A DNA stretch of 27,759 bases from a virus: positions 1 through 27,759 of IMG/VR virus record IMGVR_UViG_3300023082_000032; one strand, written 5' to 3'. How positions within the stretch are numbered: position 1 is the first letter of the stretch; the number at the start of each line of letters is the position of its first letter. A program made the position numbers and the translations under genes. Under the pieces are notes generated by a model. It ran no database searches. It saw only the letters and a list, made by a program, of their open reading frames with translations, and was not told the DNA's origin. Positions 2,723 through 27,121 of the stretch are shown here, in pieces.

Positions 2723-4453
2723 CTATAACTCCAGCGGGTCGTTAGGAATTTTCAGCCGGTAAGTAGCCGGGATATCGACTACCAATTCATCGCGTTCAGT
2801 GGCCGGGATTTCAGATGCGGTGATTTGAAGGCGCCGTTCAAAGACAGGTAACGTCGGATCCGCGTTGTCGTAGTTGCCCGAGAAACCGTCTAGTGCGTCG
2901 TCGTAAACTGGCGAATCCTGCTTGCCGCCCAGTTGAGTCTCCAGCGCCGGAGCGACGACATCCTCTTCCTGCGGCACCGTCGAAATTGCCGGAGCGCTCA
3001 GCGGATCCTGATCTGCTCCGCCACCACGCATGAGTTTCACCGTGAGGGTAGTGATCGCCGCGCCGCTGGCAAGATCGAAAGAGTCTTCGACGCGGCAGCA
3101 CCTGGCTTGCGCCAGTATTCCCTGATCCCGAAGACTTAATGTGTGGATCAAGTCCACATCCAAAACCATGCTGGTTGGGACACTCCAGCTCACCGCGGTG
3201 GCCGTGTGAGCAAGAACAATTGTTGTTTTCGCTTGATTGAGCAAACACAGCAATGCGGCCTGCCGCTGCGCCTCATCACGCTCATCAACGTGACCGGATT
3301 TCCCATCTACTGATGCAGGCACATCGATGCCGAAAGGCCCGCTTTCCCAAGTGCCACTTAAGTCAGTCGAATAATCAATTGATACTGAGTCTCTGGATAT
3401 CACCTCGCCAGCCTGCGCGACACTTGCCTCGGCAACAACGGTGAGGGCATATTTTTCTGTCACGGACTGAACCCAACGGCGCCCGCCGGTGAAGGTCACG
3501 CCCAACAACAGATCGGGATAGTTGTTGATCCAGGGTATGCCATTGCCACAGATGTCAGCGCCAGACCCGGGCGGCCTGACATAAATCGGCGATTTGATAA
3601 TGCTCATCCCCGCCGACGATGCGGAATCCTTCACCATCGCGACATCAGGCAGCTCCGAACTGGCTTGGCGCCACAGGCAAAACCCCTGAGTTCCGCCAAG
3701 CCCGCTCGTTTCCGGGTGTACCCAAGTAAAAGTTTCATTTAGTTGGTGCAGTCTGGAAAATCTGTAACTCGCATCAATCACCACCTTGTTGGTCAAGCTG
3801 GTCAAATCGGCGTAACTAACCTTCACAGAGTCATAGATCGTACTGCCTTCGCCGAAAGCAAAATCAACGTTCCCGGCATACCAACTGGTCAGCCGTAGGG
3901 CGCCGGTGGTTGATGAATCCAGACTTGCCTGAATGGTGCCCAAGCGCTCGCCAAGGTAATCCCAGCGGCTACGGCCTTCGGGCGCTTCGAAAACATCTGC
4001 CGACCAGAACGCAGGGGCAAGCGCGTCAACCTCTGCAACGGAAAGCTTTTCAATCCGCTGCTGGAGCTGATCACCGCAGTGACAAATCAGCAATCGTCCG
4101 ACCGAGTCCCACTCTGTAGAGAACACGCGCCCAGTGTACCTTCGCTTCTCAGTCGTCACTCCCACGGCCGTTGTGATGTAGTCGATGGTGACTTCCCTGC
4201 CCACCCAATCCATTGGCAATACCGCTCCGGGCAGCATCTGCAGAGTAAAGTTGGCAACACCTGCGGCGCCGCGCTCACGGTCTACATCAACTTGGCCGCT
4301 CAAACGCGCGGTGAAGTCGACGGCGGCAACCAAAACGCGAAGGGCCCAACGGAAAGCGTATCCCGGCACGATCGGCTGGGGGTCCGAGACTGCCGCGCGT
4401 CCATTGCCACCACTATTGAGAGGGCCGGCGTTGAGTGGAGATCCGTTGAGCAT
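2723..4453 (-). CDS. Tail hub/baseplate-like protein
   Basis: A 576-residue protein. Residues about 40-130 carry a pattern typical of phage tail hub domains of the gp27/gpD type: a 'D-x-T-A-R-L-S-G-x-V-x-V-D' strand, a later 'G-R-E-V-T-I-D-Y' strand, then 'Y-T-G-R-V' and 'C-G-D-Q-L-Q-Q'. This supports a ring at the tail end between tube and tip. The C-terminal 100 residues are acidic and less ordered. I chose the ATG at 4453, which overlaps the upstream stop as TGATG and gives the N-terminus M-L-N-G-S-P-L-N; an in-frame start 27 bases earlier lies inside the upstream gene. No lambda gpJ-like protein is seen, so the tip differs from that of lambda. Confidence 0.7.
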   Translation of the reverse strand: MLNGSPLNAGPLNSGGNGRAAVSDPQPIVPGYAFRWALRVLVAAVDFTARLSGQVDVDRERGAAGVANFTLQMLPGAVLPMDWVGREVTIDYITTAVGVTTEKRRYTGRVFSTEWDSVGRLLICHCGDQLQQRIEKLSVAEVDALAPAFWSADVFEAPEGRSRWDYLGERLGTIQASLDSSTTGALRLTSWYAGNVDFAFGEGSTIYDSVKVSYADLTSLTNKVVIDASYRFSRLHQLNETFTWVHPETSGLGGTQGFCLWRQASSELPDVAMVKDSASSAGMSIIKSPIYVRPPGSGADICGNGIPWINNYPDLLLGVTFTGGRRWVQSVTEKYALTVVAEASVAQAGEVISRDSVSIDYSTDLSGTWESGPFGIDVPASVDGKSGHVDERDEAQRQAALLCLLNQAKTTIVLAHTATAVSWSVPTSMVLDVDLIHTLSLRDQGILAQARCCRVEDSFDLASGAAITTLTVKLMRGGGADQDPLSAPAISTVPQEEDVVAPALETQLGGKQDSPVYDDALDGFSGNYDNADPTLPVFERRLQITASEIPATERDELVVDIPATYRLKIPNDPLEL

Positions 4454-4962
4454 CACGCTTCCTCCCACGCAATAGACCAACCGAACGTCGCCTGGGCCGC
4501 GCTCATTGATTTTGGGGGTTTACTAGCGAACACGTTATAGACCGGCATCCACTGAATCATGTACTTGGTGGCGCCCACCAAAAGGTTGGCAGTGGCAACA
4601 CCGCCAGCCAGTGTGCATCCAACCTGCACCCAATCTGAACCAACCAAAGCAAAAGCGGCTGGATCTGTATCGGGACGTGGCTGGCTCGTAAGGATGTAGG
4701 TTCTGCCATCGCCCACAATGCACTCTTGATAGGTCAGGCGCAGCTCAAGGGGCTGGCTGTAATCGAGTCCATCAAGGCCAGGCGGCATCCAACCTTGGCC
4801 GCTGATCGACCCAGAAGCCTTGCCCCAGTGCGTCATTTTTACGCCAGCGCCACCCGATAGCCGAACAACTGTCTCGCCCAACAGAGGCGTGTCGGATTGA
4901 TCGGGAGCACCGGCGTGCAAGACGATAGGCACGCCACCCAGGGTGACAAGAGGAAGGCTCAT
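4453..4962 (-). CDS. Tail protein upstream of the hub, unknown family
   Basis: A 169-residue protein starting M-S-L-P-L-V-T. I chose the ATG at 4962 because a GGAG sequence lies seven bases before it; the longer in-frame version would begin inside the terminator hairpin. The sequence is beta-rich and soluble, with no membrane segment. Its stop codon overlaps the hub start (TGATG), so the two products are translationally coupled and probably assembled together. It occupies the place where distal tail proteins are encoded, after the tape measure and an inserted membrane gene. The precise role is unknown. Confidence 0.7.
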   Translation of the reverse strand: MSLPLVTLGGVPIVLHAGAPDQSDTPLLGETVVRLSGGAGVKMTHWGKASGSISGQGWMPPGLDGLDYSQPLELRLTYQECIVGDGRTYILTSQPRPDTDPAAFALVGSDWVQVGCTLAGGVATANLLVGATKYMIQWMPVYNVFASKPPKSMSAAQATFGWSIAWEEA

Positions 4963-4979
4963 CCATTTACTCCGGACAC

Positions 4980-5004
4980 AAAAAAACCGCCACACGGGCG
5001 GTTT
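4980..5004 (-). terminator. Intrinsic terminator behind the zinc-ribbon moron
   Basis: On the minus strand an 8-bp perfect stem (AAACCGCC/GGCGGTTT) with a five-base loop is followed by a run of T. It lies between the stop of the zinc-ribbon membrane gene (5021) and the start of the next tail gene (4962). It would end a short moron transcript. Late transcription must read through it, as expected for Q-modified polymerase. Confidence 0.85.
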
Positions 5005-5020
5005 CGGGAAAGAGGTGCTG

Positions 5021-5322: not shown

Positions 5323-5375
5323 CTCCTTTTGGACAGCCGCAATCTACCATCTAAATTCACGCTGACCAAAAGGAG
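5323..5375 (-). promoter_or_regulatory. Hairpin that would mask the moron ribosome binding site
   Basis: A perfect 10-bp inverted repeat (CTCCTTTTGG at 5366-5375 in minus-strand sense, CCAAAAGGAG at 5323-5332) is extended inward, after one mismatch, by four more pairs (CAGC/GCTG). The loop is 23 bases. The downstream arm contains the ribosome binding site of the zinc-ribbon gene. In an RNA that started upstream, such as the late operon transcript, this site would be paired and translation blocked. In an RNA starting inside the loop the site would be free. Confidence 0.75.
5341..5369 (-). promoter_or_regulatory. Candidate promoter inside the hairpin
   Basis: Minus-strand sequence shows TTGGTC, a 17-base spacer and TAGATT, which match the sigma70 boxes at 3/6 and 4/6 positions. 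The expected start, near 5334, falls between the loop and the downstream arm, so the transcript would lack the upstream arm of the hairpin. The match is modest and the call rests mostly on context. Confidence 0.4.
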
Positions 5376-5395: not shown

Positions 5396-8300
5396 TTACG
5401 TCCTTCCATACTTAACCCGCTGATTGCGGACAAGCCGCTGAAAGTCTTGCTGCGGCGCTTGGAAGTTGTAGGTCTCGCCGCCGACGTTCATAGACACATG
5501 ACCCAGCGGCTCAGGCACTACGGGGTTAAGTTGCTGCTGAATAGCGGTGCTGACCGCAGGGATATTTGGCAAGGATCGCGGCCCTACGCTACCGCCATGC
5601 GCAAATCGAGGAAACTTCCGGTCGTTTATCATCCGAAGGAAATCCGGACCATAGTGCTGAACGGCCGCCGTTTTCATCACAAACTCACCGTTTGAAAGCA
5701 TAGCCAATATGCTGTCGCTTGTTCCACTACCTGGACCGCGCACCATATCGCCTCCCGCGTAGCCTGGCAGATCGGCGGATGGCGCGGCGACCGCAGGCAC
5801 GTCTCCGCCCAGAACGGTCACTGGGATAGTCAGCACTTGCCGCATCTGCGAAGCCACTTCGGCAATTTGACTTTGCGCCGCCGCCACCGAAGCTTGATCA
5901 ATCGCAGGGGTTACTGGTACATCAAGATTCCGCACAGCACCGTCTGGGATTGCCGGTTGGACTGGAACAGGCAGCGGCCCTTTGGCGGCAACCTCGCGAA
6001 CGAGTTTCTGGTAGTAGTCTTCCTCGAGTACCGGCGCGACCTGAACAGCAGTATTCCGCTGCGAGTAATCCGTGACGCCAGCTTGGTACTTCAGTTTCGC
6101 CGAAGTTTGGGTTGCTGCTGGTGAAGTCGGCGCAGCGCTGGGCGCCGGGGCCTGCGTTGTTGAGGTGGGAAACGAAACGGTGCTGTTGGACTGACCAGAA
6201 ATGGCCTGCATTTCATCCGTAGGCTTGACCGTCACAGGAACATTGAATGCCAAACCCAACTTCGCCTTCAGATCCTGCATCTGCTTAATGACAGCTGCAA
6301 CCGCCTCTTCCGAAAGCGTCGGCGTGATCTGGACGTTTTTAAGCTCATCGAGCCGGGCCTTCAGATCGGCCGTTTTATCGGTCGCGGCCTTTAGGCTGTC
6401 CTCGGCCTTCTTGACGTTGATGCCGTCGGCAGCCGTCTCGATGCTCTGCAGTTCCTTGATGAAGCCAGCAAACCCAAGAGTATTGCCACCTGCGTCCGCA
6501 AGCTTCTGGAGAATCTCCAAAGACGCTTCGGCTTTCTTTTTGGCGCCATCCACATCGCCGTTTTGAAGCGCTTGCCTGGCACCTACTTTCAACGCCTGCG
6601 CGTTTCCGTACGATAGTTCGCCGGACGTTCCGCCACCTTGGATCCCGGAGAGCGCCGCAGCGTATTTTTTCTGAGTGTCGAGCTGTTCGTCTTTCGCTTT
6701 TTTGATAGCGCTGGTTGCCGCCCGCTCTGCCGCAACTTGCGCTTTCAAGCCCTTTTTCGTCTCGGCGATCAGATCCGTCTGAACCGCCTTGAGCTTCGTG
6801 CTTTGCGCACGGGCAGCTTCTAGACGTGCCTCGCCCTCTTTCTCCGCATCAGAGTTGCCCTGCCCTTGATCGGTGGCCAGCTTATCTCGTGCGGCCTTGG
6901 CATCCGCTATGAATTTGTTTAACCCTGCAATCTCAGAATCAAGTTGTGCTTGTGTGTATAGCTTCCAGTCGAAAAGAACTTTGTCGTTTTTGTCGTTAAC
7001 ATTCAGCTTCGCGCGGGCAGCTACCAGGTCGCGGATACGTGCGAGAGCAACCGATATCTCAGTTGAGAAACCACCGACAGTCGTTTTCGCACTTCGGAAA
7101 TAATCTCCGAACTCGCCGCTCGACAGTTTCGCAATCGCTGCCGTCACGCCTTGAACAGCGCTTACGGCATTGTTCGAAGCGCCGACAAAATCGTCCATCT
7201 GCTTCGTGGAAACAAGAATTTGGTTCTTAAGCTGTTCGAAGGCGCCGCCCCATGTTTCCGGCAGCGTCTTGGCCTCTGCGGTGAGTTTTGGAAGCTCTTG
7301 CAGAAGGACGTCAACGATCACGTCCGCCGTCAATTTACCCTCGGCCGCCATGGCACGAAGCGCACCGGTTGGAACCTTGAGGCCATCAGCAAGCGCACGT
7401 AGCAGTCGTGGGGAGTTCTCAGCAATGGAGTTGAATTCATCGCCGCGCAATACGCCCGAGCCAAGCGCTTGCGAGAATTGCAGCACTGTACTTGCAGTCT
7501 CTGAAGCGGTGGCACCGCTAATACGCAGAGATTGGGTCACTGCGTCGATTACACCAAGGGTCTCTTTTTGCCCGCGCCCCATTTGGGCGAGAGCCGGCGC
7601 GAGCTGGCTGTAGAGTTGAACCACACCTTCAAGTGGTGCCTGATTGCGCTGGGCGATTACAAATGTCGCCCGTTGGGCCTCGTTGTATTCCTCTTGGCTC
7701 GATGTCGCCAGCCGAAGCTGTGCTTCCATCTTCTTCGCAACGTCGGTCGTTTTGAGATAGGCAACTCCCAGTGCGATCGCGGACAGACCGGCGCCAGCCA
7801 GGGTGATATTGTCAGTCAGCCCAGAATCGGAGGCTGAACCGGCCTTGGCCTTATTTGCGCTTGCCTGCTCACCCTTAAGGGCGGCAATAGCCTTTCGGGT
7901 TTGGTCCAACTGCTTGCGGTACTGCGTTTCCGCAACGCTGCGCTCAGAAGCGGAAAGCACCCCTGCGCGGGTTAGCCGAAGATAATCCGCAGTCACTGTA
8001 GCAAGCTGCGCTCGCAGCTCTTTAAGACGATTAATGCCAAGATTCTGAAGAGCGGGGTCTTTGGTGGACGCAACTGGCACCTTTACAGGCGCAGCGTTGA
8101 CCGACCGCAGCTCACGCAGCTTCGTAAGCGTCTCGGACACGCTACGGCGATAATTTGCCTGAGCAATCCCCAAGTCGCGAGAGGACAACTCTCCAGACGA
8201 TTTCACCAGCGCGTACTGTTCGCGAAGTTTCACCAAAGCCTGTTGCGTGTCACGGACACCGCTTGCGCCAAGCGAGCTCTTGGCCGAACTCAAAGCACTC

Positions 8301-24829: not shown

Positions 24830-25532
24830 TAGCGACCTCCACGACAGGACGGGCAGCAACCGATCGGCGAGCGCGCAGTTCGGCCAAAGCTTTGTTGCCG
24901 ACCTCCGGGGTAATTTTTGATGGCGGTGCCAGCTCAGCAACGGGCACGGACGCAATCTGCTCGCCGCGCCAGACCTTGTTAACCTGGACCATGTAGCGCT
25001 TTTCAAAGCTAGCCAAGCCAAGCTCACGGGAAAGCAGCGGGAGACTGTGGAAGCCAGCGGCCGCTGTGGCGTGATAAACCGCAGGGTGAAACCACTTTGC
25101 AGAGTCGCGCATCGCTGGGTGGCAGTTGCGCAGCGCCTGCTCGTATGCGGATTCAAGGCTTGGGAGATTCAACATTTCCGGCGTAGGCACACATCCTTGA
25201 ATGAACTTGCCCACGCTGGGGATGAAGTCGGAAGCCTCGGCGCGGCAACGCATCAGGCCGATATTGATCTGTTCCTGAGTGCAGATGCCGTTCTCGATGA
25301 AGCCCTGAAGCCAGGTCTTTTTCGATTCCAGGTAGGACTTCTTATCCGGCCACGCTTGGCGCCATGCCGTGCGAATCGAGCGCAATTCTTTGAACAGATG
25401 GTTGATTACCTGCCCGGTCTGGCGAGCCTGATCCTGTTTGGCCTGGGCAGACACGTCAGTGCCCGCTTCGACGAACTCACCGGCGTGAACCTTGGTCATC
25501 GCGGATGCTGCGTAGGAGGCGACCGTCTTCAT
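24816..25532 (-). CDS. Replication protein P-like (helicase loader)
   Basis: A 238-residue protein, close to lambda P (233), following directly behind the O-like initiator. The middle part 'W-R-Q-A-W', 'G-I-C-T-Q-E-Q-I-N-I-G-L-M-R-C-R' and 'F-I-P-S-V-G-K-F-I-Q-G-C' (about 57-117) agrees with the phage lambda P family. P proteins bind the host DnaB helicase and deliver it to the origin. The ATG overlaps the O-like stop as ATGA. The C-terminal 40 residues are Ala/Arg/Val-rich and less ordered. Confidence 0.88.
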   Translation of the reverse strand: MKTVASYAASAMTKVHAGEFVEAGTDVSAQAKQDQARQTGQVINHLFKELRSIRTAWRQAWPDKKSYLESKKTWLQGFIENGICTQEQINIGLMRCRAEASDFIPSVGKFIQGCVPTPEMLNLPSLESAYEQALRNCHPAMRDSAKWFHPAVYHATAAAGFHSLPLLSRELGLASFEKRYMVQVNKVWRGEQIASVPVAELAPPSKITPEVGNKALAELRARRSVAARPVVEVANGTH

Positions 25533-26323
25533 GACTTCACCCCGTCCATCCAGCTGGTGTCATCGTCGTCGGTGCTGTCCACAGTCGATGTCGCGCCTGC
25601 ACTGGTGGTGCGGTCACGCTTGATCCAGGAGGCGAGGCGGTATGCCCATCCGCCGTTGCTGTCAACAGTGCCAGGGCGTGCCAGGTAAAAACCCTTGAAA
25701 CTGGCAATCAGCTTGGCGGTTGCCGCATCAGCTGGCAGCGCAGCTATTTGCAGTTGAGCGGACAGCGCCTTGGCCGATGGTTCCCAGCCGGCGAACATGG
25801 CGAAGCGCTGACGGTCGTCGGCGGGTTGCAAGGCCTCGCCGTCTTGCTCGGCGACAGCGTTCAAAATCTCGCGCTGCTGCTGCTCTTCGGTTACCTGATG
25901 GTTAAGTGATGTATTGGGTGCAGATTCTGCACCCCGATCTGTCGAATTCTGCACCCCGGTCTGTTGCTGGTTGCACCCCGTGACGTCATCTGCACCCCGC
26001 TTTGAACGGGGTGCAGCGTTTGCACCCCGACCAAGCTGAAGGTCATAGACGACTGGGCGGCGGTCATGTCGTTCGATGTACACGGCAGCCAATGCCTGAT
26101 TGCCGCGAACGATGAAACCGCCCTCTTCCAACAGGTCCAACTTGTAACGGACGGTGCGTTCGGAAAGGCCGGTGTCTTCGCTCAGGGTGTTCGCAGATGG
26201 ATATGCGCCACGACCATCCGAACTGGCGTAGTTGCCCAGGCACAGCAGTACGTGACGCGCGCTTGAATCAGAGAGTTGGGTCTTGGCGATCTGAAGCGCC
26301 CAGGCCATAGCTTGAACACTCAC
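25529..26323 (-). CDS. O-like replication initiator with HTH and DnaT-like domains
   Basis: A 264-residue protein starting with GTG (GTGA overlap with the Rha gene; GGAG lies seven bases upstream). Residues about 5-90 form a winged helix-turn-helix: 'A-R-H-V-L-L-C-L-G-N-Y-A' and 'Y-P-S-A-N-T-L-S-E-D-T-G-L-S-E-R-T-V-R'. A linker at about 99-140 is encoded by the iteron cluster. Residues about 172-240 resemble the DnaT-like ssDNA-binding domain ('F-A-G-W-E-P-S' ... 'N-G-G-W-A-Y-R-L-A-S-W-I'). An Asp-rich tail follows. It probably binds the iterons in its own gene and opens the origin, as lambda O does, then hands over to the P-like loader. Confidence 0.85.
   Translation of the reverse strand: MSVQAMAWALQIAKTQLSDSSARHVLLCLGNYASSDGRGAYPSANTLSEDTGLSERTVRYKLDLLEEGGFIVRGNQALAAVYIERHDRRPVVYDLQLGRGANAAPRSKRGADDVTGCNQQQTGVQNSTDRGAESAPNTSLNHQVTEEQQQREILNAVAEQDGEALQPADDRQRFAMFAGWEPSAKALSAQLQIAALPADAATAKLIASFKGFYLARPGTVDSNGGWAYRLASWIKRDRTTSAGATSTVDSTDDDDTSWMDGVKS
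25928..26029. repeat. Iteron cluster, probable phage replication origin
   Basis: The 9-mer TGCACCCCG occurs at 25928, 25950, 25972, 25991 and 26021, and once inverted (CGGGGTGCA) at 26007. The first two copies share a longer ATTC prefix. Spacings of the first three are 22 bases, about two helical turns. A degenerate inverted half copy (GGGTGCA) is at 25916. Read as protein the copies fall in all three codon phases (R-G-A, G-C-N, G-V-Q), so the DNA, not the peptide, is repeated. Confidence 0.8.
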
Positions 26324-27069
26324 AGTGCAGCTCCATTCAGTTTTTCGGCCAGCAGCGCCAACCCTTTTGGCGTGATGAGAGCATCGAACGCGGCGCGCTC
26401 AATGCCGGTCTCTGGGTCTGGCTTCAGCGCAGTGACCTTGTGCCTCATCAGTCCGGCGGTGATACGCGGCTGATAGGCAACCCAACGGCTTGTACCGCGG
26501 CGGCGGAAGATCCACCTGCTGGCCTGCAGCCAGTCGAACAGCTTGGAAGGCTGCACCTGCAACTGCTTGGCGGCATCAGTGATGCAGATCGCGCCGCCAG
26601 CGCCAGCAAGACGCTGTATCGCGGCGACCTTCGGGGCTTGCCGCTTGATGAGCTGTTGCAACTGCTGGTTCTGCTCAGCCTGCTGGGTTGCCAAGCGCAT
26701 CGCTTCGAGGAATGTAGTGGGGATTTGGAGCTGGCCGACAACTCGCCCTTCCAGCTCATGCCAGCGCCGGATGACTTTCATACGCATCGGAGCGCTGTAG
26801 CCGGTCAGCAGGCAATCGGTATGCTCACGGTCAAGCAGGTATTCCGTCTGGCTACGATTCTGGGCGTCTTGATAGATGCGCTCAAAACTGAGCGCATCTA
26901 CGTTCAGCTCTGAAAGCATGGCGAGCACATCGCGCTTCACGTTTTTATGAAGCTTCCCGGTCAGCTCTGCAATTTCGCGCGAAGACATGAACTGGCGCGT
27001 CATGTGTTGCTGCTGGTGAACAACTGACGAATCAGGCGCCCTATTGCTCTGGGTGGTCGTGGTGTGCAT
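26320..27069 (-). CDS. Rha-family phage regulator with C-terminal KilA/ANT-like domain
   Basis: A 249-residue protein from the ATG at 27069, which follows GGAG by seven bases; an in-frame GTG at 27111 lies inside a hairpin and is less likely. Residues about 23-110 match the Rha N-terminal domain: 'S-S-R-E-I-A-E-L-T-G-K-L-H-K-N-V-K-R-D-V' and 'Y-L-L-D-R-E-H-T-D-C-L-L-T-G-Y'. A Gln-rich helix follows (about 125-145), then an antirepressor-type C-terminal domain ('D-A-A-K-Q-L-Q-V-Q-P-S-K-L-F-D-W-L'). Rha proteins regulate lytic growth in several lambdoid phages. It stands between the CII-like and O-like genes. Confidence 0.85.
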   Translation of the reverse strand: MHTTTTQSNRAPDSSVVHQQQHMTRQFMSSREIAELTGKLHKNVKRDVLAMLSELNVDALSFERIYQDAQNRSQTEYLLDREHTDCLLTGYSAPMRMKVIRRWHELEGRVVGQLQIPTTFLEAMRLATQQAEQNQQLQQLIKRQAPKVAAIQRLAGAGGAICITDAAKQLQVQPSKLFDWLQASRWIFRRRGTSRWVAYQPRITAGLMRHKVTALKPDPETGIERAAFDALITPKGLALLAEKLNGAAL

Positions 27070-27096
27070 AATCGGCTCCACAAGTGTTGTTGAAGA

Positions 27097-27121
27097 AGCC
27101 GGTCTAGCCACCGGCTTTTTT
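27097..27121. terminator. Hairpin between the CII-like and Rha genes
   Basis: A 7-bp perfect stem (AGCCGGT/ACCGGCT) with a six-base loop is followed by six T on the plus strand and by TCTTC on the minus strand. It is a good terminator for rightward transcription and a weak one for the early operon. For the early operon it would act like lambda tR1, needing antitermination or being leaky. Confidence 0.65.

Follow-up and report, generated by a model that had tools for sequence, protein, structure and literature searches.

Genes e, soc, 49, and I-TevI of bacteriophage T4 have Shine-Dalgarno (SD) sequences that are hidden in long early transcripts, and a late promoter lies between the two pairing arms, with an effect of about 100-fold for gene e according to the review of these systems (PMC3014915). 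This layout separates early from late expression in a lytic phage by means of T4 late promoters. The transposase genes of IS10 and IS50 are protected against read-through RNA entering from outside. Masking of an SD by a leader hairpin is also described for IS200 tnpA (PMC12594629). Induction brings very strong transcription of the operons in which prophages carry accessory genes, and the control of mistimed expression has been solved for few systems. In BstA/aba self-immunity, a DNA element spares the induced prophage (PMC8585504), and in Tha/Ith self-immunity, an inhibitor is encoded antisense (PMC11087260). HK97 gp15 is a moron with demonstrated superinfection exclusion, as cited in PMC10883804. 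What is new in the present analysis is that an SD-masking layout is recurrent in a family of tail-operon morons; the mechanism itself has a precedent in T4. A literature search, with incomplete coverage of the literature, did not find this design reported for temperate-phage morons.

The window analyzed here is a stretch of 27,759 nucleotides, positions 1 to 27,759 of IMG/VR virus record IMGVR_UViG_3300023082_000032. Within it, a small moron gene lies directly 3′ of a long gene that was assigned as tape-measure-like by its size, by the character of its sequence, by its position, and by how the neighbors are annotated in relatives (Table 1). The small gene is an extra gene inside a conserved phage operon. 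The initial annotation had claimed that it has its own terminator, and one is indeed present at 5005-4983; a terminator lies downstream of the gene in 44 of 54 family members (81%). The cassette in the window shows classical moron anatomy. The next gene downstream (4453 to 4962) must depend on read-through of the moron terminator or on another promoter. In most relatives, the moron gene sits just before the tape-measure gene, with a large ORF directly downstream in 26 of 34 loci, and its position relative to the tape-measure gene flips among relatives. The protein has two predicted transmembrane helices, a short helix, and a C-terminal zinc ribbon (helices 2-20, 25-49, and 53-63; Zn_ribbon_3 match, E 7e-7). 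The phrog_8436 profile matches it over residues 1-95 (E 1.1e-28), that is, across the whole protein, and PHROG 8436 has no function attached to it. A structure model was obtained with moderate confidence (pLDDT 76, pTM 0.35). Assignment to a known defence family was rejected, as the comparison gave just a marginal homing-endonuclease match via the zinc ribbon (E 0.018).

Read in the mRNA sense on the minus strand, the 5′ arm CUCCUUUUGG (5375-5366) pairs with the 3′ arm CCAAAAGGAG (5332-5323) over 10 bp, all of them perfect. Beyond one U-U mismatch, CAGC (5364-5361) and GCUG (5337-5334) form an inner stem of 4 bp. The claim of a 10-bp perfect stem plus a 4-bp inner stem over the SD of a zinc-ribbon membrane gene was therefore correct to the base. 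The hairpin loop is 23 nt, and a weak inner helix (AAUUUA/UAGAUU) takes in the −10 element. RNA folding, which the initial annotation had proposed as a check, was run computationally. The 67-nt hairpin fragment had a minimum free energy of −26.8 kcal/mol (z −4.8), equalled by 0 of 200 shuffles, and RNA from the predicted start at 5334 did not fold better than its shuffles. Perfect 10-bp inverted repeats with gaps of 20 to 60 nt were seen four times in the window versus about 1.5 times expected from mononucleotide shuffles. The repeat alone is thus not rare in the window, and its exact overlap with the SD is what stands out. Consistent with this, the SD opening energy in the window had a z of +4.3 versus upstream-shuffled versions, a value reached by 0 of 40 and 0 of 30 shuffles. 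The exact 10-bp repeat was present in none of the other viral contigs in a viral contig search, a comparison of the hairpin region with phage records found no DNA similarity, and the Rfam 15 covariance models gave no match at 5323-5375 and only chance-level hits nearby. A reading of the hairpin as a terminator was rejected, since no T-run follows the stem and the hairpin is absent from the terminator list. An RNA thermometer was considered improbable, a stem of −26.8 kcal/mol being too stable for one.

Table 1. Features of the moron cassette and its neighbors in the window
Feature	Position	Strand	Remarks
Next downstream gene (late)	4453..4962	-	In-frame ATG 4962-4960 after SD-like CCGGAG
Intrinsic terminator GAAACCGCCCGTGTGGCGGTTTTTTT	4983..5005	-	Strong; 3′ of moron gene
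Moron gene, 98 aa	5021..5317	-	ATG 5317-5315; PHROG 8436
3′ arm CCAAAAGGAG	5323..5332	-	Holds Shine-Dalgarno AAGGAG
Predicted transcription start	5334	-	7 nt past −10; placed by spacing
Inner stem GCTG	5334..5337	-	Partner CAGC 5364-5361
Putative extended −10 TGGTAGATT	5341..5349	-	In hairpin loop; core TAGATT 5346-5341, 4/6; extended TGG
Inner stem CAGC	5361..5364	-	Partner GCTG 5337-5334
Putative −35 TTGGTC	5364..5369	-	3/6 consensus; overlaps 5′ arm
5′ arm CTCCTTTTGG	5366..5375	-	Complementary to SD region; overlaps −35
Tape-measure-like gene, 1111 aa	5396..8731	-	Directly upstream, same direction; stop at 5396

The putative promoter TTGGTC-N17-TAGATT matches sigma-70 at 7 of 12 positions, and a simple consensus promoter scan of the window did not report it. 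When 16 relatives were aligned over 75 nt upstream, their sequences were divergent apart from a conserved block, TGnTAnAnT, in which six positions were invariant along with one G of the SD. In several relatives, TTTGGTG/C aligned at the −35, about 17 to 18 bp (usually 17) from the −10. A second clade carries GTGACA-N17-TAGGAT at the matching place, and a third carries an extended TGTTATGAT there. Because the extended −10 is conserved in relatives, transcription is predicted to start close to 5334, at a point past the 5′ arm. A start between the arms would correspond to the layout of T4 gene e; the conserved −10 lies between them, and the putative start was placed by its spacing from that −10. 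The initial annotation had placed a candidate promoter in the hairpin loop. This held for the −10 but not for the −35, which overlaps the upstream arm, and the candidate promoter combines a weak sigma-70 match, missed by the scan, with an extended −10 conserved in the 16 relatives. Inspection by eye led to rejection of a sigma-54 reading of TTGGCGCTTCCTGCTG in L052 and L117, where GG and GC are spaced by 8 and not by 10.

Predicted accessibility of the SD differs sharply between the two RNAs of the window. Opening of 8 SD bases was computed to cost 13 to 17 kcal/mol with both arms present versus about 2 kcal/mol in RNA starting near 5334-5335. On stepwise 5′ truncation, the drop in opening cost fell exactly where 5375-5366 was removed, and with the 5′ arm deleted, the predicted cost of opening the SD was about 2 to 4 kcal/mol instead of 16.9 kcal/mol. 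By prediction, then, the SD is buried in the long RNA and open in the RNA from the internal promoter, as for T4 gene e. The earlier claim that a long mRNA would be silent and a short one translated is partly supported, as the computed folding energies hide the SD in read-through RNA and expose it in RNA from about 5334.

Relatives of the gene were collected from viral contigs, giving 54 non-redundant members with distinct upstream sequence. They were compared with 131 further genes taken from these phage loci under identical treatment, for which two control values are given. Long RNA was defined as −90 to +20 and short RNA as −20 to +20, and dinucleotide shuffles were made of each gene's own upstream sequence. 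SD pairing with the region from −60 to −40 was about five-fold more frequent in the family (0.32 in 54 members versus 0.06 to 0.08 in 131 controls). The extra SD opening cost, long minus short, was 3.67 kcal in the family versus 0.83 and 0.35 kcal in the controls (p 5e-6 to 1e-9, depending on the test). The mean z versus upstream shuffles was +1.09 versus −0.14 and −0.19 (p 5e-6 and 8e-5); the designs of the shuffles and controls were fixed once the first family result was known, so that these p-values are not blind, and they are robust to fragment length (p about 1e-9 for long minus short when fragments of other lengths were used). Values of z above 2 were reached by 28% of the family versus 2% and 0% of the controls. 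After collapsing at 68% identity (n = 39), z was +1.10 versus −0.15 for controls (p 1.8e-5), and most of the SD was paired with −62 to −38 in 31% of the collapsed family versus 2.3% of controls. Pairing partners peaked at −60 to −40, just upstream of and within the promoter, which is the necessary position because the arm must be missing from the short RNA.

The arms also appear matched to their own SD regions. The mean arm-SD duplex energy was −8.33 kcal for own arms versus −6.77 kcal for swapped arms (p < 2e-4; collapsed, p 0.0006), and controls showed no effect in the same comparison (p 0.14). Arm pairs include CCCUCUGU/ACAGAGGG in L111, CCCAGAA/UUCUGGG in L094, L140, and L148, AUCUUCUUAcUUUACU/AGUAAAuAAGGAGAU in L080, and CCCUG/CAGGG in L210, variants inside one clade not being independent. 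Between L053 and L056, both sides of a helix around the −10 have changed, from GAGU/ACUC to GAGC/GCUC. A folding-free test requiring at least 6 contiguous Watson-Crick pairs was suggestive only (4 of 39 collapsed members versus 4 of 131 controls, p 0.08). Judged from these comparisons of sequence, the layout is an enriched, re-evolving feature of the gene family and not a one-phage curiosity. It provides a sequence signature for finding similar genes; for PHROG 8436 genes, the leader signatures in DNA letters are CCCAGAA/TTCTGGG or CCCTCTGT/ACAGAGGG.

About half of the relatives have no clear SD sequestration. L002 and L003, the closest homologs (77% amino acid identity), keep the promoter and AAAAGGAG and lack the SD-hiding arm, which indicates that the hairpin is not obligatory for the moron gene. 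The SD is open in the long RNA of L002/L003, L099, L104, L106, and L118. L002 and L003 have another hairpin around the −35, GGGGUGACA...UGUC(A)ACCCC. This hairpin, at about 4931-4962, reads GGGGTGACA..TGTCAACCCC versus ..TGTCGCCCC and is retained though one arm has changed. An enterobacterial subgroup (L099, L101, L107, and L112) inverts the family pattern: the SD of the long RNA is unusually open, at 0.1 kcal/mol, and every shuffle lies above this value.

Three other explanations of the inverted repeat were weighed. One is that the complementarity is accidental or compositional: a TTTTGG-rich −35 would happen to pair with the CCAAAAGGAG SD and would have no regulatory role in the window phage. 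Such an origin is suggested by the nearest homologs without the arm, by the roughly 1.5 10-bp repeats of such spacing expected per window, and by L046, which shares the −35 TTTTGG and differs in SD context. We nevertheless regard it as unlikely, since CTCC and CAGC lengthen the match to 14 bp centered on the SD, no shuffle (0/40 and 0/30) reached the window, and both the family-wide enrichment and the comparison of own with swapped arms go against accident. The repeat could instead be a DNA operator at which a dimeric regulator, or two dimers on the arms, controls the promoter, the RNA hairpin being a by-product. Operators flanking promoters are common in prophages, and the arms in the window are symmetrical about the −10. 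If this were so, it would be surprising that the 3′ arm falls on the SD even as the arms differ between clades in sequence, length, and spacing, that some arms contain G-U pairs, and that a half-site shared across the family was not seen; we consider an operator rather improbable.

Least probable of the three is that the hairpin mainly marks an mRNA boundary, shielding the tape-measure message at its 3′ end or providing an RNase III cut, with SD masking incidental. The hairpin lies 20 nt past the tape-measure stop codon, its 10+4-bp stem could block exonucleases, and a true terminator occupies the corresponding boundary in L045, L046, L050, and L059. Against a boundary role, the hairpin lacks a T-run and is not a terminator, and the pairing is still on the SD in relatives, in which the tape-measure gene usually comes after the moron gene (a large ORF downstream in 26 of 34).

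The reading that we favor, with a probability of roughly 60%, is that promoter, SD, gene, and terminator make up a self-contained moron cassette with fold-back translational silencing. RNA of the late tail operon would carry both arms, which would pair and bury the SD, so that the membrane protein would not be made. RNA from the weak extended −10 promoter of the cassette would start past the 5′ arm, with a leader of about 17 nt and an open SD, and would be translated. In a lysogen, with late genes off, this would give low constitutive expression of the moron, and late mRNA, though abundant in the lytic cycle, would not be translated for it; the lysogenic and lytic assignments come from the anatomy of the locus. 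The computations show the structure and its energetics, the conserved promoter, the enrichment in the family, and the match between arms and SDs; we infer the activity of the promoter, its state in the lysogen, late read-through, and the reason for silence. Most likely, silence would spare production of the phage itself from damage by a membrane or exclusion-type protein. Portable control of this kind, by a short anti-SD arm ahead of an internal promoter, would need no protein and would move with the cassette.

As in T4 e, soc, 49, and I-TevI, the SD in the window is predicted to pair with upstream sequence, and a transcript from the candidate promoter would lack the 5′ arm, so that the long RNA would be silent and the short one translated. 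The order is the opposite of that in T4, with silence expected of the long late message and activity of a sigma-70-like lysogenic transcript, for a moron in a temperate-phage tail operon. IS200 tnpA and IS10/IS50 likewise use an SD hairpin to silence a mobile gene, IS10/IS50 specifically in read-in RNA. However, IS elements guard transposases in transposon ends, whereas the arms in the window surround the internal promoter of a phage accessory gene. BstA/aba and Tha/Ith share with the window the need that a protective prophage gene must not hurt its own phage on induction; they differ in that the window would rely on translational masking in cis, for a protein whose protective role is hypothetical.

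A further counterpart is HK97 gp15, also a small inner-membrane moron beside the tape-measure gene with its own terminator. It differs from the window in having no zinc ribbon and an arm nearer the start codon, and gp15 and the window protein gave no alignment with E ≤ 100. Among 7 distinct leaders of gp15 relatives (L313-L341), 6 pair the SD with a short arm located past the −10 and ahead of the expected start, such as CUUUCC..GGAGG in HK97 and CACUCC/GGAGUG in L339; the shuffle test was not significant for these leaders (mean z about 0.7, n = 7), which makes them a lead only. It is a tentative and rather doubtful generalization that fold-back silencing is a general, repeatedly re-evolved solution for morons in temperate-phage late operons, covering at least the zinc-ribbon family and the unrelated HK97 gp15 family, in which an arm upstream of the gene's own transcription start would ensure that a protective membrane protein is never made from late mRNA.

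Several further features were observed in relatives and elsewhere in the window. The moron promoter of L045, L050, and L059 is directly preceded by a nearly identical strong terminator, GGGCACCTTCGGGTGCCTTTTCTTTTT, which would be a second, transcriptional insulation of the cassette. Upstream of 5001 in L117, the TGGTAGATT block that belongs to the clade of the window accompanies an L077-type moron protein; other L077-type members are without this promoter block, and promoter and gene seem to have been exchanged separately. Two repeat structures lie far from the moron in the window. A perfect 12-bp inverted repeat with a 4-nt loop (TAGATGCGCTCA/TGAGCGCATCTA) occurs at 26873-26900 within an antirepressor/Rha-like gene (26320-27111). 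At 25916-26034, within the gene at 25529-26323, direct and inverted TGCACCCCG repeats form a cluster that resembles replication-origin iterons inside an initiator gene.
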